The translations under genes were made by a program, and so were the position numbers. A stretch of DNA of 64,000 nt from Planctomycetota bacterium (GTDB taxonomy: Bacteria; Planctomycetota; PLA2): assembly GCA_021776735.1 (NCBI GenBank), contig JAJFFH010000029.1, positions 85,676 to 149,675 on the forward strand. The letters are read 5' to 3'. The notes under the pieces were generated by a model that saw nothing but the letters and a program-made list of their open reading frames with translations, ran no database searches and had not been told where the DNA came from. Numbering within the stretch: position 1 is the stretch's first letter; the number at the start of each line of letters is the position of its first letter. Positions 4,161 through 36,259 of the stretch are shown here, one piece after another.

Positions 4161-4346
4161 TTTCGTTCTCCTTTGTCGCGCGCCTCGAGCCGGCGCGACG
4201 ATGGGTTCATCTGATGCACTTGCTGCCGCGACCGAGCGCCTGGCCTCGCGGGTCAAGACGCGGCGGATGAGCCTCTCGATTCTGGCACCGTCCTCCTCCC
4301 GTGCGAGGTGGCCGGTATCGAGCAGGCGGCAACTCGATTCTTTCTC

Positions 4347-26080: not shown

Positions 26081-26971
26081 ATGGCAACTCTCGCTACTCT
26101 CATCGATGGCAAGGCGATCGCGGCGGACGTCCGCGCCGAGGTCAAGAAGGGCGTCGCGGCGCTCAAGGCCGAGCACGGCATTACGGTCGGGCTCGCAACC
26201 GTCTTGGTGGGCGACGATCCCGCATCGCACAAGTACGTGTCGATGAAGCGCAAGGCGTGCGCGGAAGCCGGGATCGAGAGTTTTCACCACCAACTCGGCG
26301 CGGATGCCACGCAGGATCAGGTGCTCGGACTCGTGCGCGACCTCGGCGCCGACGACCGCGTCCACGGCATCCTCGTACAGCTTCCGCTGCCGAAGCAGGT
26401 CGATGAAAAGACGGTCCTCGACGCCGTGCCGCTCAGCAAGGACGTCGATGGATTTCACCCGCTCAACATCGGTGCGCTCGCGATGAAGGGTCGCGACCCC
26501 GAGTTCCGCCCCTGCACGCCGCACGGCTGCATCGAGCTGCTCAAGCGATCGGGCACCGAGATCAGCGGCGCCAACGCCGTCGTTCTCGGCCGCTCCAACA
26601 TCGTCGGCATGCCGGTCGCGCTGATGCTGGTCGAGCAGAACGCGACCGTCACGATCTGCCACTCGCGCACCAAAAACACCCCGGACCTGATCCGCGAGGC
26701 CGACATTCTCATTGCCGCGATCGGTCGCGCGCACTTCGTGAAGGGCGACTGGATCAAGCAAGGCGCCACCGTCATTGATGTCGGCACGAACGTCATCGAC
26801 GACCCGTCGCGCAAGAGCGGCAAGCGCTTGGTCGGCGATGTCGACTTCGACGCGGCCAAGGAACGCGCGGGCAAGATCACCCCGGTTCCCGGCGGCGTCG
26901 GCCCGATGACGATCGCGATGCTGCTGCAGAACACGCTGCGGGCGGCGAAAAAGGGCGTGCCTTCCGGTTAG
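26081..26971 (+). CDS. folD: Methylenetetrahydrofolate dehydrogenase/cyclohydrolase
   Basis: The 296-residue protein has the FolD signatures: KYVSMKRKACAEAGI (catalytic Lys region), GILVQLPLPKQVDE, HPLNIGALAMKG, VVLGRSNIVGMPVALML (nucleotide fold) and ITPVPGGVGPMTIAMLLQNT. It interconverts 5,10-methylene-, methenyl- and 10-formyl-THF, linking directly to fhs upstream. The last codons and TAG stop lie inside the first hairpin of the repeat array that follows, so the repeat appears to have supplied the current end of the gene. Confidence 0.97.
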   Translation: MATLATLIDGKAIAADVRAEVKKGVAALKAEHGITVGLATVLVGDDPASHKYVSMKRKACAEAGIESFHHQLGADATQDQVLGLVRDLGADDRVHGILVQLPLPKQVDEKTVLDAVPLSKDVDGFHPLNIGALAMKGRDPEFRPCTPHGCIELLKRSGTEISGANAVVLGRSNIVGMPVALMLVEQNATVTICHSRTKNTPDLIREADILIAAIGRAHFVKGDWIKQGATVIDVGTNVIDDPSRKSGKRLVGDVDFDAAKERAGKITPVPGGVGPMTIAMLLQNTLRAAKKGVPSG

Positions 26972-27097
26972 CGCAGGATTCGCTAACCGGTGAATCGGGG
27001 TCGGACGGGCCCAGTGTCTCTTGGCTTCAACGGCTGACGCCGTTGAGAGCCTTGCGGGCCGGTGGCCCTTCCGGTTGGCGGAGGAACCGCTAACCGG
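26964..27097. repeat. REP-like hairpin array 1 (B-A-B)
   Basis: Three hairpins in a row. The first is CCGGTTAGCG/CGCTAACCGG overlapping the folD stop. The second is the TCAACGGC/GCCGTTGA type with loop TGAC (27027-27046). The third is CCGGTTGGCGG/CCGCTAACCGG with loop AGGAA (27071-27097). A short GGGCC/GGCCC hairpin lies between the last two. The unit recurs at 33579 and 36317. Confidence 0.85.
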
Positions 27098-27175
27098 TGA
27101 AACAGGTCGGGCGGGGCGGTGAACTATCGGTTGAAGAACAAACGGGCCTTCTGGCATTCTTTGTTCGGAGGGACC

Positions 27176-28150
27176 ATGCGAACGCTCCTGATCGTGATCG
27201 CCCTTTTCGCCGGCCAGACGCGGGCCGGCGAAACCGACAACCTGCTTGCCAACGGTGGGTTCGAGGACAAGCTCCAGGGCTGGACCGTACAGGCCAGGGT
27301 CGCGACGTACACCGCGACGAAAAAAGGCAAGGTCAAGGGCAAGTGGTGCCTGCATGCGCGCAAGCCGCGGGCGTTCTCGCATGGAGAAGCGCTGTTCGCC
27401 GACTTTGAGATTCCCAGATCGAGGCGCAACGGGCACGTCGTGGTGAGCCTGCGCGCGAAAGGCAAAAAGCTCGGGAACGCCTGGCTTCGCTGCTACCTGT
27501 ACGACGCTGCCGGCCAGACGTTGAACCGCGACGTCGATCTGCCACAGCTTCGCGGGACGTTCAAGTGGACCCGGCACGAAAAACGCTTTGCGGTGCCGAA
27601 ATCCGCTGTGCGAGGACGGGTTCTGCTCAACCTCTACATGGGCGAGGAGCTTTGGCTGGACGACATTAGGGTCGTCCACAAACCGGGCGCAGGCGAGCAG
27701 ACATCGTCGGGGATCAGAAACGGTGGATTCGAAGAGAAACTGAAGGGATGGATCACGCTACCGTCCACCGCAGGACGGGCGCGCGCGAGCGTCGATCGCA
27801 CTGTCAAGAACGCGGGCAAGGGCGCCCTGCGCCTTCGGCGCCGGCACCAACGGTTGTTCCCCCAAGCCGGCGTCAGCCAATCCACGCCCACGGGCGGCGT
27901 GACCAAGCTCGTCTTGCGCTACCAGGTTCGCGCGAGCGACGGCGCGCGCGCCGTGGTGACGCTTCTGGCGTTTGGTGGACGCGGCGACCTGGTGGCCTCG
28001 GCGCACCGAGAAACATCGCCGTCCGTCGGCTTTGTTCAAGGGGAACTCCCCCTCACGCTCCCCGCGTGGGCCGAAACCGTGACCGTGTCCCTGGAAATCG
28101 CGGGGTCGGGCAGCGTCTGGTTCGACGACGTCACGCTGGAGGAGAAGTAA
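27176..28150 (+). CDS. Secreted protein with two carbohydrate-binding-like modules
   Basis: The ATG at 27176 follows CGGAGGG. The 324-residue protein has a signal peptide (MRTLLIVIALFAGQTRA) and two modules of about 150 residues, each opening NGGFE(D/E)KLxGW and ending in WLDDIRV or WFDDVTL. This is the CBM_4_9-like beta-sandwich pattern used to bind polysaccharide. No catalytic domain is present. The second module contains RETSPSVGF, encoded by a dispersed-repeat copy. The stop overlaps the next start (TAATG), so it is coupled to a secreted esterase, suggesting a substrate-binding partner. Confidence 0.8.
   Translation: MRTLLIVIALFAGQTRAGETDNLLANGGFEDKLQGWTVQARVATYTATKKGKVKGKWCLHARKPRAFSHGEALFADFEIPRSRRNGHVVVSLRAKGKKLGNAWLRCYLYDAAGQTLNRDVDLPQLRGTFKWTRHEKRFAVPKSAVRGRVLLNLYMGEELWLDDIRVVHKPGAGEQTSSGIRNGGFEEKLKGWITLPSTAGRARASVDRTVKNAGKGALRLRRRHQRLFPQAGVSQSTPTGGVTKLVLRYQVRASDGARAVVTLLAFGGRGDLVASAHRETSPSVGFVQGELPLTLPAWAETVTVSLEIAGSGSVWFDDVTLEEK
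28014..28026 (+). repeat. Dispersed repeat copy inside CBM-like gene
   Basis: Exact CATCGCCGTCCGT preceded by GAAA and followed by CGGCTTTG. Here it is read in the frame giving TSPSV, not IAVR, so different copies are used in different frames. Confidence 0.8.
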
Positions 28151-29424
28151 TGCGTTTGCTCGCGATCCTCCTCTTGGCGACCGCGGCCCGCGCGGACGAC
28201 CTGACCACGCGGGTGCGCGAGGTGCTGGCGAAGGTGCTCGCCGAGCCGAGTGCCAACAAACGTCGGGCACTTGTGGCGCCGCTGCGCGACGCCGGCTCCC
28301 TGCGCAAGATCGCCACCGCGATGCGTCACGGCCCGAAGCTGCCGGGCAACGCGCGCAAGAAGCGGCGCGGCGAGAAGCTCACGACGGTCGGCAACACTAC
28401 GGTCGGCTACTCGTTTTCGTACGACGGAGAGAAATATATCTACGCCGTCGACGTGCCGAAGGGCTACGATCCGAACAAGCCGACACCGGTACTGCTCGAC
28501 CCGGGCCACGCGGGCATCCGCAGCAAGTCCGACAAGGAGAAGGCGGAAGCTCTTGTTTTCTTCCGCCGCATGCTCGACCAGGCGGGCTGCGCCGATTGGC
28601 TGCTCGTGCGCACGCACATCGTCGAGGACATCGGCGCGGACGCCAAAAACAAGCCGGAGGAGTACGGCGCGCGTGTGTTTCAGGAGATGTTTCGCGACCT
28701 CGCGACACGCTTTCACATCGATCCGGACCGCATCTATTGCACCGGGCTCTCCCAGACCGGGTTCTGGACGTGGATGCTCGGCCGCGCACGCGCCGATCGG
28801 TTCGCCGGCATCGCGCCGATGGGCGCGGTCGTCTGGGAAGTGCAGCGCTACCCGACGAACTTCATCAACCTGCCGGTCTTCGTCCTCCACGGCGAAAAAG
28901 ACCCCATCTGTCGCGTCGCCCCGGTGCGCGCGGTCCTGCCCGTCCTCGCGCGCCACGGCGTCCCGGTGCGCTACCTCGAACTCGCCGGTGCGGGCCACGA
29001 CGGCTCGGTCTGGAGCACGCTCCCGCGCGCGTTGGAGCACCTCAAGAAAACCGCGCGCGTTCGCTACCCCGCCCGCATCTCCAAGAGCCTCGGCACCACG
29101 CACGACGGCTGGTGCTCGTGGCTGCGCATCGACGCCATTCAAAAGGACAGCCAGGGACGCGCGCAGGACGCCCCCACCGCGGCGATCGACGCCGAACGCG
29201 ACGGCCAGACGTTTCGCCTCTGGTCCACACGCGTGAAGAAGGTCACGCTCTGTTTCTCGGACGAAATGGCCGACCTCGATCGCCCGATCGTGGTGCAATG
29301 GAACGGAAAGGAACTGTTTCGCGGCAAGGTGACGCGCGACATCTTCACCTTGTTTGAACTCGCCCATGAAAAAAGCGACTGGACGGCGATGTTTTCAGCC
29401 TCGCTGACGCTTGGGGTTCCCTAG
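28150..29424 (+). CDS. Secreted alpha/beta hydrolase (esterase/depolymerase-like)
   Basis: The 424-residue protein has a signal peptide (MRLLAILLLATAARA), the nucleophile motif GLSQTGFW, VFVLHGEKDPICRV (Asp region) and ELAGAGHDG (His), as in PHB-depolymerase/feruloyl-esterase-like hydrolases. The early DVPKGYDPNKPTPVLLDPGHAG forms the oxyanion side. The last about 100 residues form an extra domain of unknown role. It overlaps the upstream binding-protein gene (TAATG), and the sigma-fusion gene starts 3 nt after its stop, so all three appear to be one operon. Confidence 0.82.
   Translation: MRLLAILLLATAARADDLTTRVREVLAKVLAEPSANKRRALVAPLRDAGSLRKIATAMRHGPKLPGNARKKRRGEKLTTVGNTTVGYSFSYDGEKYIYAVDVPKGYDPNKPTPVLLDPGHAGIRSKSDKEKAEALVFFRRMLDQAGCADWLLVRTHIVEDIGADAKNKPEEYGARVFQEMFRDLATRFHIDPDRIYCTGLSQTGFWTWMLGRARADRFAGIAPMGAVVWEVQRYPTNFINLPVFVLHGEKDPICRVAPVRAVLPVLARHGVPVRYLELAGAGHDGSVWSTLPRALEHLKKTARVRYPARISKSLGTTHDGWCSWLRIDAIQKDSQGRAQDAPTAAIDAERDGQTFRLWSTRVKKVTLCFSDEMADLDRPIVVQWNGKELFRGKVTRDIFTLFELAHEKSDWTAMFSASLTLGVP
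29379..29391 (-). repeat. Degenerate dispersed repeat copy at esterase 3' end
   Basis: CTGGACGGCGATG preceded by AGCGA matches the reverse core at 11 of 13 positions and keeps the upstream AGC. It encodes DWTAMFS near the C-terminus. Confidence 0.45.
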
Positions 29425-29427
29425 CCC

Positions 29428-31548
29428 ATGGATTTCTCCCGGCGCCTGCTCGAGCACGGCGATTTTGTTCGCGCGTTGGCGCGTTCGCTGGTGCGCGACG
29501 CCCACCGAGCCGACGACGTTGCCCAGGAGACGTTTCGCATCGCGCTGGAACGGCCGCCCCAAAAAAACGGCAACCTGCGCGCCTGGCTCGCGCGCGTGGC
29601 CCGCAACGTCGTCTTGCTGGGCCACCGCCGCGAAGCACGCCGCCAACAACGCGAGGAGCGCACCGCGCGGCCGGAAGCGGTCGGCGCCACAGCGGACATC
29701 GTCGCGCGACTCGACTGGGAGTCCCGGCTCGTCCACGCCGTGCGCGAACTCGACGAACCGTACCGCGCCACGATCGTCCATCGATTCTTCGAACAGCTTG
29801 CGCCCGCAGAAATCGCACGCCGCATGAAAGTGCCGCGCAAGACGGTGTACACCCGGCTCCAGCGCGCACTGGAGCAACTGCGCGCCAGACTGGACCACGA
29901 CATGAGCGGCGATCGGCGCGCGTGGTGCGCCGCGTTGTTGCTGTTGGCGAAACGTCCACGGCGGGTTTGGGGGGGCGCGGGGGCCGTGGTCGCCGCAACG
30001 GCCGCCGCGATCGCGGTGTGCGTGCTCGTCTTCGCCAGGGCCGAGTCGGACGCCCATCGGGTTCAGACACGCCCGGCGAGCACGGCCCACGCACTCGTCG
30101 TGCGGCGGCGTGGCTCGGCTCCGGCAGGCGGCCTCACCGCAACGAAACCCGCCGTAGACGAGATTGCCGCCCGCGCGCAACGCTTCGACGCGCTCGCCCA
30201 CGACTACCTGATCGTCATGCCGGAGGCCGTACGGCTCGTCGACGGCGACCCCGATCTCCTGCCGCGTGTCTTCGCGGCTATGAAGTCGCCGTTCGCCAAA
30301 CAGCAGATCCTCAAGCTGCTCGGCGTGCGACGCAACCACCGCCACACACTCGAGGTTCTTTGGCTCGCTGCGCACGACGACGATGCCTCCGTCCGATGCA
30401 TGGCCCTTGCGGACACATCGTCCCACGTCGTACGGCGCATGACTCCGGACGAGACGCTCGCGTGGCTCGACCGCCACCGCCACGACGAACTGCGGCCACT
30501 CCTCGAGGCCCAGGTGCCAGCTGCCATCACGGCGATCGGACGTCTGGAGTTGATTCCCTTCACCGGGCGGCGCGGCTCATCGCTCTTCGTGCTCAAGAAG
30601 CAGCTGGACGCATTCGGCCTCCACGAGGTGCTCGACGACATGGGCGACGAGGCCCCGGAAGAGTTCGAATTCTGGAGCGGCTCGCGACCGCCCGCGTCCA
30701 ACCCGACGCCACGACCTCCGGCGGTGGCGCCCGATCTCTGGAAGCGGCTCCATCCCCACCCGGACCTCAACAAGGCCGTCGAGATCGCCGCGGGTTGGGC
30801 CGAGCGACCCGACGCGCTCGCCTACCTGCGCAGCCTGTGGGCGAACCTCGACGCGTTCTGGAAGACGCGTGCGCTGATCACGTTCACCGGTGTGCGGGCC
30901 CATCCCGACACGGTGCATGTTCTGGCGCTCGGCGTGCGCGACAGCGACTCCGACGTACGCAACGACGCGCTTGAAATGCTCGAGGAGGTCGTGTTCTGGC
31001 GGTTCAACGACCGCGCGGCATTCGAGCGGTGGGCAGCCGATTGGGAGCATCGTCGCTACGCTCGCATCCGGCACGCGCACGCGCAGCGTTTTGTCCGTAC
31101 GCTCACGCCCGCCACCCTTGCCGGAATCGACAGCTTTCGCGGTGCCGTGCCCTTGCTCAAGGAGGCCGGCCTGCTCGAAGCGCTGGCCCTGTGGCCCGAG
31201 CCGCCCATGGACCGGATCGAAGACCTCCGGCCGAGCCCCGCGTTTGTGCGCCGCGTGGTCTTGCCGCACTTGCGCGGCGGCGCCAGGAATCTCAAAACGA
31301 TCTGCCGACTGGTCGGCAAGACCAAGACCGTGTGGGCACGCGATGCGCTGCTCGACGCGCTGGCGCTCGCCCCGGCCGAAGCCGCGCACGGCCTCGCGTT
31401 CTCCGGAGACATCGCCGTCCGTACGCGTCTGTTCGATGCACTCGTGGAAGGCCACGATGTGGAGGACGCGTTGTCACGTCTTTCGGGCGTTCCGCACGGT
31501 CCGTGGGGCGTCGAATGGTGGCGCGGCAATCTTGTCCGGCGTCGGTAG
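29428..31548 (+). CDS. ECF sigma factor fused to membrane helix and HEAT-like domain
   Basis: This 706-residue protein begins as an ordinary ECF sigma factor. Region 2 (about 8-75) has ADDVAQETFRIAL and NLRAWLARVARNVV; region 4 (about 108-160) has LDEPYRATIVHRFFEQLAPAEIARRMKVPRKTVYTRLQRALEQL. A single membrane helix follows at about 182-206 (AGAVVAATAAAIAVCVLVFA), then about 500 residues of helical HEAT-like repeats expected outside the membrane. A membrane-tethered sigma factor with its own extracytoplasmic domain would need release or local action. A dispersed-repeat copy encodes SGDIAVRTRLF near the C-terminus. It is coupled to the secreted esterase pair. Confidence 0.85.
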   Translation: MDFSRRLLEHGDFVRALARSLVRDAHRADDVAQETFRIALERPPQKNGNLRAWLARVARNVVLLGHRREARRQQREERTARPEAVGATADIVARLDWESRLVHAVRELDEPYRATIVHRFFEQLAPAEIARRMKVPRKTVYTRLQRALEQLRARLDHDMSGDRRAWCAALLLLAKRPRRVWGGAGAVVAATAAAIAVCVLVFARAESDAHRVQTRPASTAHALVVRRRGSAPAGGLTATKPAVDEIAARAQRFDALAHDYLIVMPEAVRLVDGDPDLLPRVFAAMKSPFAKQQILKLLGVRRNHRHTLEVLWLAAHDDDASVRCMALADTSSHVVRRMTPDETLAWLDRHRHDELRPLLEAQVPAAITAIGRLELIPFTGRRGSSLFVLKKQLDAFGLHEVLDDMGDEAPEEFEFWSGSRPPASNPTPRPPAVAPDLWKRLHPHPDLNKAVEIAAGWAERPDALAYLRSLWANLDAFWKTRALITFTGVRAHPDTVHVLALGVRDSDSDVRNDALEMLEEVVFWRFNDRAAFERWAADWEHRRYARIRHAHAQRFVRTLTPATLAGIDSFRGAVPLLKEAGLLEALALWPEPPMDRIEDLRPSPAFVRRVVLPHLRGGARNLKTICRLVGKTKTVWARDALLDALALAPAEAAHGLAFSGDIAVRTRLFDALVEGHDVEDALSRLSGVPHGPWGVEWWRGNLVRRR
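31410..31422 (+). repeat. Dispersed repeat copy inside sigma-fusion gene
   Basis: Exact CATCGCCGTCCGT followed by ACGCGTCTG; read in the IAVR frame. Confidence 0.8.
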
Positions 31549-33578: not shown

Positions 33579-33777
33579 GGCTTCAACGGCTGACGCCGTT
33601 GAGAGCGGGTGGCTCTCCCGCTTCGCGGGGAACCGCGAACCGGTGAAGATGAATCGGGGGGCGGGCCGTTCGGCAGTGTCTTTTGGCTTCAACGGGTCTT
33701 TTGGCTTCAACGGCTGACGCCGTTGAGAGCCTCGCTTGCGGGCGGCGTACCCGCTTCGCGGAGGAACCGCGAAGCGG
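33579..33777. repeat. REP-like hairpin array 2 (A-B-A'-A-B), fills 307-nt gap
   Basis: Between the helicase and the broken kinase gene (33566-33872) there is no gene. The stretch holds hairpin A (33579-33606), hairpin B with one mismatch (about 33619-33644), a partial A duplicated in tandem (TTTTGGCTTCAACGG), a full A (33703-33731) and a perfect B, CCGCTTCGCGG/CCGCGAAGCGG with loop AGGAA (33751-33777). The remaining bases to 33872 show nothing recognisable. Confidence 0.85.
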
Positions 33778-33872: not shown

Positions 33873-36259
33873 TCAGGCGTGCGAAGGGGGGAGGCCCCTG
33901 GCGCAACGAACACCCACATCTGTGCTCCGAGCTCGCGGGAGGTACGTGGTGCGGACCGCGCAACGCAAGAACGACGGTTGAGCGTTCCACGACCCGCCGC
34001 GCAGAACACGCGACGAACGGCGCTCATCTTCCCAGCTCGAGGTCCAGTCCCAGGCACCGCCCGAGGCGTCCCCCATACCGTAGACCGATTCTGCGGTTGC
34101 GAAGGCGCCCACCGGCTCCGGCTGCGTCGGTACCTCTCGCGACTCACGGCACTTGCCCAGCGACGCATCCTCCAGATCGCCCCACGCGAAGCGGCGGCCG
34201 TCCACGCCACGCCCCGCCTTCTCCCGCTCCTCCTCGGTCGGCAGGCGCCACTCCTGCCCTGTGGCCTCTCCTTTCCAGTTGCAAAACGCCTCGGCGTCGT
34301 CGTAGTCGATGCCGATCACTGGGCAACGCAGGTCAAAGCCTTCACCGTGGTGCTTCTCGCACCATTCGCGCGCCGGTCCTTCGACGAGAATCGGCAGCAC
34401 TCGCCACACGCCGTCCACCTTCTCCACGCACGGGCCGTCTCCCGGCGTCTGCGGTTTGCGGCGCTCGGCCTCCTCTTCATCCAGGATCGACAAGAATTCC
34501 AAGTACTCGCCGAACGTCACCGGGTACTTCGCCATCGCGAAGTCCGGCAGCTCCTTCGTGGTCGTCTCTTTGCCCTTTCCGTAGATGAACTTCCCCGCCG
34601 GCACATGCACGAAGCCGTCCCCGATCTCTTCGTCGCTCTTGAGGCCCACCTCGCCCCGCCACGTCTGTCCGCGCTCGATCAGCACCGGGTAGCGCGTGTC
34701 GCGCTTGCCGTCGGCTTTCAGGACGCACAGGTAGCTCCCGCTCGGCAGCGACGCCTCGACCGGTGTCGTGCCCAAGAATCGCTCGTTCACCGGCGTCTGC
34801 ACGCCGTCGATCTCCTCGTAGCGCGCGATCGTCACCTCGGCGGGGGCGTTCGAGGTCACTGTGAGACGGCCCTCTTCGACAAGCGGTTCGTCCACATAAC
34901 GCTCGATCATCACCTTGGCGTAGGCCGTGTCCACCCGGTGCCGGCGCCGCTCCGCATCGGTCAGGCGGTCCGCCCAAATGTGTGCCAGCTCCGCCCGCGC
35001 GGACTTGTTGTCGGACTCCCGCAAGAGCGCCGCGTCCAGCAGCTTCTGGCACTCCGCGAACGCCAGCGCCAGATCCACCTTGAGTTGCTCGACTCTCTCG
35101 CGCGCCTCGATCATCGGGCGCTTTTCTGAAACCGGCTGGTACGGCTTGTACTCTTTCACCTCCGCGTCGGCGGCGTCCTCGGCGCGCTTGATCTCGTCGC
35201 GCAGTTCCAAGTAGCGCTGCGTGGCCTGCTTGCCTTCGGCCGCAAGACGCTCTGCCTCCTCGTGGCGCCGCTGCCTCTCGGAGCGACCGTCCAGCCAGCG
35301 GCGCAGGTCGTCCGCCAACTCGTCCGCCATCTGGTAGCGCTGCTCAGGATCGGCCTGAAGCGCCTTTTCGCAGATCGTCGCCAACGGCTCCGGCACCTTG
35401 CGTCGCGCGTTGCGCGTGCGCACGTCCGCGATGTCGCCGGTCTGTTTTTTGACGATCAGGTCGCCGTCCGACGGATCGAACGCCGGCAGCAGGCACAGCA
35501 TCTCGTACAGCAGGCAGCCCAGCGCGTAGATGTCGCTGCGACGGTCCAGCTCGCGGGCCAACAGCTGCTCCGGGCTCATGTAGGGCAAGGTGCCCTTGAT
35601 CGAGCCCGCCTGGGTCTCAAGACCCGCGCTGGTCCGCGCGGTCTCCACCGCTTCGATGTCCATCTCGTCGTCGTAGTCGTCGCCATATCGGTCGGTGGTG
35701 CTGGCGACCCGCGCGAGGCCCCAGTCCATGACGTGCACCTCGCGTAGTCGCCCAGCATGATGTTGTCCGGCTTGAGGTCTCGGTGGATCACGCCCTTTTC
35801 GTGGGCGAAATGCATCGCCTCACATATCCGCTCGAGCACCGTCGCGAGCTTGTGCAGGTTGAACTCCCGCGCGATCTCTCTTCGGCGCAGCGTCAGGTCG
35901 TGCAGCACTTCGCGCAGCGTCCGGCCGCGCACGAGCTTCATCGTGAAGTAGAGCTTGCCGTCCTTGGTGATCCCGATGTCGTGGACCGGCGGTATCCCCG
36001 GATGCTCGAGCTGCGAGGTCGCCTGCGCCTCGGCGATGAAGTGCAGCAGTTGCTCGCGACCCTGGGCCTAGTCCCGCCGCTGGATCTTCATCGCCACCTG
36101 CCGCCGAAGGTCCTTGTCGGTGACGAGGAAAACCTCCCCCATACCGCCCTTACCAATCGGCGCTTCCACCAGGAACTTGTCCTGCGAGGGCGTGAATTCC
36201 GCCAGGACATCGCCGTCCCTGGCTTCTGCTTCCGGGTCGGTTTCCGCCCACTCGATCAT
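33873..36259 (-). pseudogene. Ser/Thr kinase-PEGA-SUMF1 protein, interrupted
   Basis: One gene of about 795 codons is split by two lesions. The kinase N-lobe (IGKGGMGEVFLVTDKDLRRQVAMKI) is followed by an in-frame TAG at 36068-36070. The same frame then resumes with GREQLLHFIAEAQ and HRDLKPDNIMLGDY. At about 35745-35755 one G is missing (should read GDYGEVHVMDWGLAR) and the frame changes to the long ORF ending at 33873. That part holds MSPEQLLARELDRRSDIYALG, a PEGA-like beta domain, and a C-terminal formylglycine-generating-enzyme/SUMF1 domain (VHVPAGKFIYGKG, WRLPTEEEREKA, RVLRGGSW, VGVRCAR). Kinase-SUMF1 fusions are typical of planctomycetes. It is either a decaying gene or affected by sequence errors. 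Confidence 0.85.
36209..36221 (+). repeat. Dispersed repeat copy (one mismatch) in kinase 5' end
   Basis: CATCGCCGTCCCT, one base from the core. It encodes RDGDVLAE ahead of the kinase domain of the broken kinase-SUMF1 gene. Confidence 0.55.

Follow-up and report, generated by a model that had tools for sequence, protein, structure and literature searches.

The window, a 64,000-nucleotide stretch of a Planctomycetota genome, encodes a protein in which an ECF (group 4) sigma factor, a single membrane helix and an outer domain of about 500 residues are joined in one polypeptide. The protein belongs to a large family, with at least 60 sigma–helix–ectodomain fusions in its own genome. Many family genes share an upstream promoter motif, and over half of the copies surveyed carry a probable second translation start, conserved at the nucleotide level and bordering the membrane helix. 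Together, these features suggest a one-protein receptor that would tether its own sigma factor, release it on stimulation, activate its own gene and, in many members, also yield a sigma-less second product. As a whole, this model is judged reasonably probable, with its parts graded separately below. The window copy has kept the fusion but has no internal start and no convincing family promoter.

Architecture of the fusion protein

The fusion gene begins with an ATG 3 nt downstream of the stop codon of the preceding gene. Its features, with residues numbered in the encoded protein, are as follows:

29428..31548, + strand: sigma–membrane helix–ectodomain fusion protein, a single ORF of 706 aa
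29452..29643, + strand: sigma-70 region 2, residues 9–72 (Pfam PF04542, Sigma70_r2, E 1e-10; pLDDT >90)
29725..29880, + strand: sigma-70 region 4, residues 100–151 (Pfam PF08281, Sigma70_r4_2, E 1.7e-10; Foldseek)
29914..29949, + strand: juxtamembrane helix, residues 163–174, with a near-invariant Trp166 (family alignment; helix in the model; putative function)
29980..30036, + strand: single membrane helix, residues 185–203, with KRPRR just before it (hydropathy; helix in the model)
30043..31545, + strand: predicted outer domain of ~500 aa, mostly helical and weakly HEAT-like (Pfam; AlphaFold2 model)

Both sigma-70 matches exceed the curated Pfam cut-offs, and little sequence lies between regions 2 and 4. 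A family profile matches solved ECF sigma factors, the top one being M. tuberculosis SigL (E 9e-27). In an AlphaFold2 model of the full-length protein, residues 1–170 mostly have pLDDT values of 90–98 and residues 185–211 form a helix. Foldseek searches with this model return ECF sigma structures, and region 4 superposes at ~1.5 Å on that of SigE/SigL. By region content and by a fold that resembles solved ECF sigmas, the window protein is an ECF sigma factor. A sequence-only reading of this DNA had described a complete ECF sigma factor, and the above-cut-off Pfam regions and confident model bear that description out; the region 2/4 fold on which the reading hinged is confidently modelled by AlphaFold2 and recognized by Foldseek. 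The sigma part is predicted to bind RNA polymerase and to direct promoter-specific transcription, consistent with the promoter motif shared by the upstream regions of the family.

The window protein contains one hydrophobic segment, residues 185–203, with a mean hydropathy of 2.52. It stands alone as a helix, is flanked in the positive-inside manner and is not buried in a soluble domain, and the earlier description of sigma factor, one membrane helix and some 500 outer residues in a single polypeptide holds. With sigma and sensor joined in this way, an adjacent anti-sigma gene is not needed. Across 118 family proteins, the 15 residues ahead of the helix carry a net charge of +1.5, and the side that follows it −0.1. 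This positive-inside pattern suggests that the sigma part is cytoplasmic and that the C-terminal ectodomain lies outside. Trp166, which sits in the short helix between region 4 and the membrane helix, is nearly invariant in the family alignment.

The outer domain of the window copy had been labelled HEAT-like. The Pfam hint is to HEAT_2 alone, at an E value of 0.007 that falls under its cut-off. Within the full-length model the ectodomain is all-helical at low confidence (pLDDT 30–77), and modelled by itself it reaches a pLDDT of 41, too low for a structure search. Its mostly helical character therefore stands in a low-confidence model, while the HEAT label stays tentative. No convincing relative of the ectodomain was found in the 59 genomes searched, and a search with the whole protein against GTDB r220 contigs returned generic ECF sigmas only.

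A large family with varied ectodomains

Searching the sigma part against its own genome returns 98 matches at E ≤0.001, 68 of which fall in open frames of at least 500 aa. Sixty loci were retrieved. In the 58 complete loci examined, the membrane helix lies at about residue 162–223, and the ectodomains are very different in length and sequence. Beyond the 60, at least four further, more divergent fusions are present in the retrieved DNA and one further copy is cut by a contig start, making 60 a lower bound. Carboxypeptidase-regulatory (CarboxypepD_reg)/transthyretin-like beta repeats make up 48 of the 58 ectodomains, and the window copy sits in a small helical minority.

A search for the architecture across planctomycetes had been proposed with the sequence-only reading; of the 392 genomes of the phylum that were sampled, 71 contain the family (threshold E 1e-20), with, for example, 38 and 31 copies in single genomes. 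That reading had seen a single odd gene; the fusion is real, but it is one of at least 60 in its genome, most of them lone genes. A same-strand gene lies within 50 nt upstream in 8 of 58 loci and within 50 nt downstream in 9 of 58, so that most members are not in tight tandems. Among the Pfam families that recur in at least two of the 96 immediate neighbours, no anti-sigma family is found in the first 25 of 108 families listed. Unfused sigma/receptor relatives were also sought; every short frame is cut by a contig end or is a probable frameshift.

A shared upstream promoter motif

Many family genes share an ECF-type upstream motif, TGAACC(G)nTT...CGGCAT, i.e. TGAACC-N14-CGGCAT. The plain pattern TGAA.C occurs upstream of 18 of 59 genes in the window's own genome, compared with 4.1 in shuffles and 5 on the opposite strand. 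Among relatives' genes the count is 29 of 60, against 3.5 in shuffles and 4 on the opposite strand. A matrix score of at least 7 bits is reached by 66% of genes and 2.6% of shuffles, with the matrix trained on the same genes; the plain-pattern counts, unlike these scores, are independent of matrix training.

In 45 of 65 good sites, the motif lies 33–48 nt upstream of the start codon. The −10 element would then end ~10–25 nt before the ATG, which would make the mRNAs almost leaderless. A Shine-Dalgarno site precedes just 22 of the 118 primary starts. The motif accompanies this sigma family in several genomes, which is most simply explained if the sigma factor activates its own gene, and autoregulation through TGAACC-N14-CGGCAT is the most likely arrangement for the family as a whole. 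With many copies sharing one promoter, it must also be asked how the circuits escape cross-talk.

A scan of eight genomes with the strict motif gives 26 exact matches, 9 of them ahead of family genes and the rest, by estimate, near chance. A wider regulon defined by exact promoter matches was rejected on the same estimate for the non-family matches. The window copy has, at best, a weak 7.3-bit candidate and no convincing family promoter. Looking for promoters of the window operon and of genes sharing its motif, as had been suggested, gave the family motif, a weak candidate in the window and few other targets.

A probable second start site at the membrane helix

In many family genes, an in-frame ATG borders the membrane helix. 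Shine-Dalgarno matches at the proper distance precede 54 of 94 such ATGs, compared with 60 of 952 other internal ATGs of the same genes (p 5e-33). The usual form of the site is GGA-GNN-NNN-NNN-ATG, with a spacing that is usually 8 nt. Where glycine is encoded four codons before the ATG, the codon is GGA in 40 of 51 cases, against 15.6% GGA among the glycine codons of these genes (p 4e-23), a preference that points to constraint on the nucleotides and not just on the peptide. When GTG and TTG starts are included, an in-frame site is present in 62 of 118 genes, compared with 10.8% of equally long control zones.

Full-length protein alignments of homologues show that the site is also retained. 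GGA is kept in 38 of 52 comparisons at the site versus 69 of 440 elsewhere, and Met in 42 of 73 versus 135 of 1315, the homologue pairs in both counts not being independent. The mRNA is predicted to fold less stably at the site than GC-matched windows from the same genes do (−11.2 versus −14.9 kcal/mol, p 5e-9), and genes that lack the site show no such weakening at the corresponding position. Among other membrane proteins with a cytoplasmic N-domain before the helix, the site occurs in 1 of 23; three of four apparent carriers in this control set were more divergent sigma fusions and were removed. The predicted internal product begins M-x-x-K and leads directly into the membrane helix. The site is missing from about half of the family, including the window copy, and so is not essential to the architecture.

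More divergent ECF heads are fused in the same manner in L226 (2412–5702, + strand) and on the minus strands of L043, L047 and L063. These fusions also have a Shine-Dalgarno site and a start ahead of the helix, which suggests that the dual-start layout extends beyond one ECF subgroup. Separately, gene C63 of the same genome (L225, − strand, at about position 4211 of the reverse complement) encodes a stand-alone membrane-anchored transthyretin-like repeat protein. It has no sigma part, and its N-terminus, MKSVHLL, resembles the predicted internal product.

The sequence pattern makes it likely that the second start is really used, and the chances that its product has a functional role are about even. 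In the fullest form of this proposal, the genes are dual-product: the near-leaderless start would give the sigma-bearing receptor and the internal start a sigma-less one, so that each circuit would set its ratio of signalling to decoy receptor at translation. Such circuits, of which a planctomycete lineage would run dozens, share a promoter and may therefore be wired together. This full proposal is as apt to be right as wrong.

Two other explanations of the site were weighed. It could be a relic of repeated sigma fusions, in which receptor genes brought along starts of their own, with no product made today. The C63 gene shows that receptor genes with such N-termini occur, and absence of the site from roughly half of the family would also fit, but a relic does not account for GGA and Met being kept between diverged homologues far above background, or for local mRNA that is open only where the site is present. 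The lack of unfused sigma or receptor neighbours, with the short frames explained by contig ends or probable frameshifts, likewise speaks against it, and a relic is considered rather unlikely. A much smaller probability attaches to the GGAG-like sequence being a translational pause that aids membrane-helix insertion instead of a start. Its position, always at the helix edge, is what a pause would predict; however, it is coupled to an in-frame ATG or GTG at start-like spacing, usually 8 nt, just 1 of the 23 other genes in which a cytoplasmic domain precedes a helix has it, and reduced mRNA structure is a property of start sites. A genuine start remains the favored reading.

Genes next to the window copy

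Two genes for secreted proteins precede the fusion gene, with a candidate promoter ahead of them:

27132..27159, + strand: weak family-promoter candidate TGAAGA-N14-TGGCAT, scoring 7.3 bits and lying 45 nt ahead of the tandem's first gene
27177..28150, + strand: secreted CBM_4_9-like protein (Pfam E 3e-5, just under cut-off); membership in a circuit not supported
28150..29424, + strand: secreted alpha/beta-hydrolase, PHB-depolymerase/S9-like (esterase; Pfam); link to the sigma gene not conserved

The secreted binding-type protein and secreted esterase reported beside the sigma gene are real ORFs. It had been proposed that they form a polymer-sensing circuit with the fusion, in which the window protein would sense a product of the esterase and binding protein and control their tandem. 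The tandem arrangement with tiny gaps and the family-like promoter candidate agree with such a circuit, although a score of at least 7 bits is reached by about 2.6% of shuffled upstream regions. Against it, two genomes of a sister genus (L228 and L229) encode an orthologous esterase, 52–53% identical, with a similar binding-type gene upstream, and no sigma gene lies within the 1.5-kb flanks of that esterase in either genome. The pair occurs there without the sigma gene, which makes the adjacency in the window recent and little informative. Tight tandems are also absent for most family members, and the ectodomain has no convincing relative in the genomes searched. The polymer-sensing circuit is accordingly unsupported and regarded as improbable, and a conserved link between sigma gene and esterase tandem was rejected on the sister-genus flanks.

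Several other features were noted nearby. Between folD and the CBM gene, positions 26960–27117 hold two copies of a 51-nt repeat that are 78% alike, each containing a hairpin, CCGGTTAGCG...CGCTAACCGG; this may be a mobile or terminator-like element. Positions 33678–33713, just past a helicase gene, are a perfect two-copy tandem repeat of GTCTTTTGGCTTCAACGG. At 33876–35738 (− strand), a Ser/Thr protein kinase sequence is fused to an FGE-sulfatase (SUMF1-type) domain.

Proposed mechanism and release of the sigma factor

In the proposed model, the N-terminal ECF sigma factor would lie in the cytoplasm, anchored at the inner membrane by one helix, with the C-terminal ectodomain in the periplasm. 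At rest the sigma would be tethered and kept inactive by the conserved Trp-containing juxtamembrane helix, by the tether or by both; inhibition by the juxtamembrane helix is suggested by its conservation. A stimulus at the ectodomain would lead to trimming and then to an intramembrane cut by an RseP-type protease, and the released sigma domain would bind RNA polymerase. In the family, freed sigma would act on its own gene through TGAACC-N14-CGGCAT, and translation would begin at the 5′ end of the resulting near-leaderless mRNA. Where the internal start is present, as in over half of the members surveyed, the same mRNA would also give a receptor lacking sigma, which might act as a competitor for ligand or damp down signalling. 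The window copy is a fusion of this kind, with neither the second start nor a convincing promoter of the family type.

Release by proteolysis is modelled on two characterized fusions. In IutY, Prc and then RseP cut the sigma/anti-sigma fusion, freeing the sigma (PMC5411451). SCO4117, of group ECF52, is proposed to work much like IutY (PMC5826349; review PMC8999054), and a truncated form without the membrane part switches on its own gene (PMC5826349). An RseP-type protease is encoded in the genome analyzed here. Given these precedents and this protease, proteolytic release is favored by analogy, and action at the membrane is the main rival. The sigma could act uncut while membrane-attached, with a ligand-driven conformational change and RNA polymerase brought to the membrane. 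This finds a parallel in the extended ECFs ECF41 and CorE, which are active without cleavage (review PMC8999054), and suits a protein with no zinc-finger anti-sigma domain between sigma and helix. However, IutY, the closest tested analogue, requires RseP cleavage (PMC5411451), and the activity of SCO4117 truncated before its membrane part (PMC5826349) also favors release, leaving an uncut sigma unlikely.

Comparison with known systems

Fusions of sigma factor, membrane segment and sensor are already known, and the window family is a variant that lacks the testable defining features of ECF52, IutY-type and ECF57 proteins. What is new here is the family-level shared promoter and the probable second start. 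No description of the family's scale, shared promoter and conserved second start was found in the open literature searched, and the family may already have an ECF group number. Fusions of a sigma factor to its own sensor are known from few cases; here they are seemingly the main sensory format of a lineage whose genomes hold tens of them, with outer domains that are interchangeable and a promoter in common. If it is used, the built-in second start would be a simple and directly testable way of setting signalling gain, and one that would escape annotation pipelines reporting a single start for each gene.

IutY of Pseudomonas putida (ECF243) is likewise a single protein in which sigma is joined to one membrane segment and a regulatory part in the periplasm, with no separate anti-sigma gene. 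It responds to an outer-membrane siderophore receptor and its periplasmic part is of anti-sigma type, whereas the family described here has transthyretin-like or helical ectodomains, at least 60 copies and, in about half of them, an internal start. Sigma and helix are present in the window protein, and no Pfam match to a FecR-type domain, an IutY-type feature, was found in it.

The actinobacterial groups ECF52 (SCO4117) and ECF48/ECF53 share an N-terminal sigma, a membrane helix, an outer sensor, proposed proteolytic release and autoregulation. They differ in having a zinc-finger anti-sigma domain ahead of the helix. In the window protein, about 25 residues separate residue 157 from the helix at 185, with a single Cys and no Pfam match, and so short a linker leaves no room for such a domain. 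The window protein also has no Pfam match to an outer carbohydrate-binding domain, a feature of ECF52. The genome encoding SCO4117 has no second ECF52 gene, compared with at least 60 fusions here.

ECF57 proteins are found in the same phylum and carry a long C-terminal extension on the sigma, often WD40. WD40 matches are absent both from the window protein and from the 25 families most common in the 58 ectodomains. ECF57 also differs in having two conserved cysteines that link sigma regions 2 and 4; residues 1–166 of the window protein contain no Cys, and none is conserved in the family alignments.

The second start has its own parallel in bacterial genes with internal in-frame starts, in which one gene gives two proteins, one of them an N-terminally truncated proteoform. 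In the present family, by comparison, the predicted start recurs across a large set of receptors, and the membrane helix is the exact point at which it divides sensor and effector.
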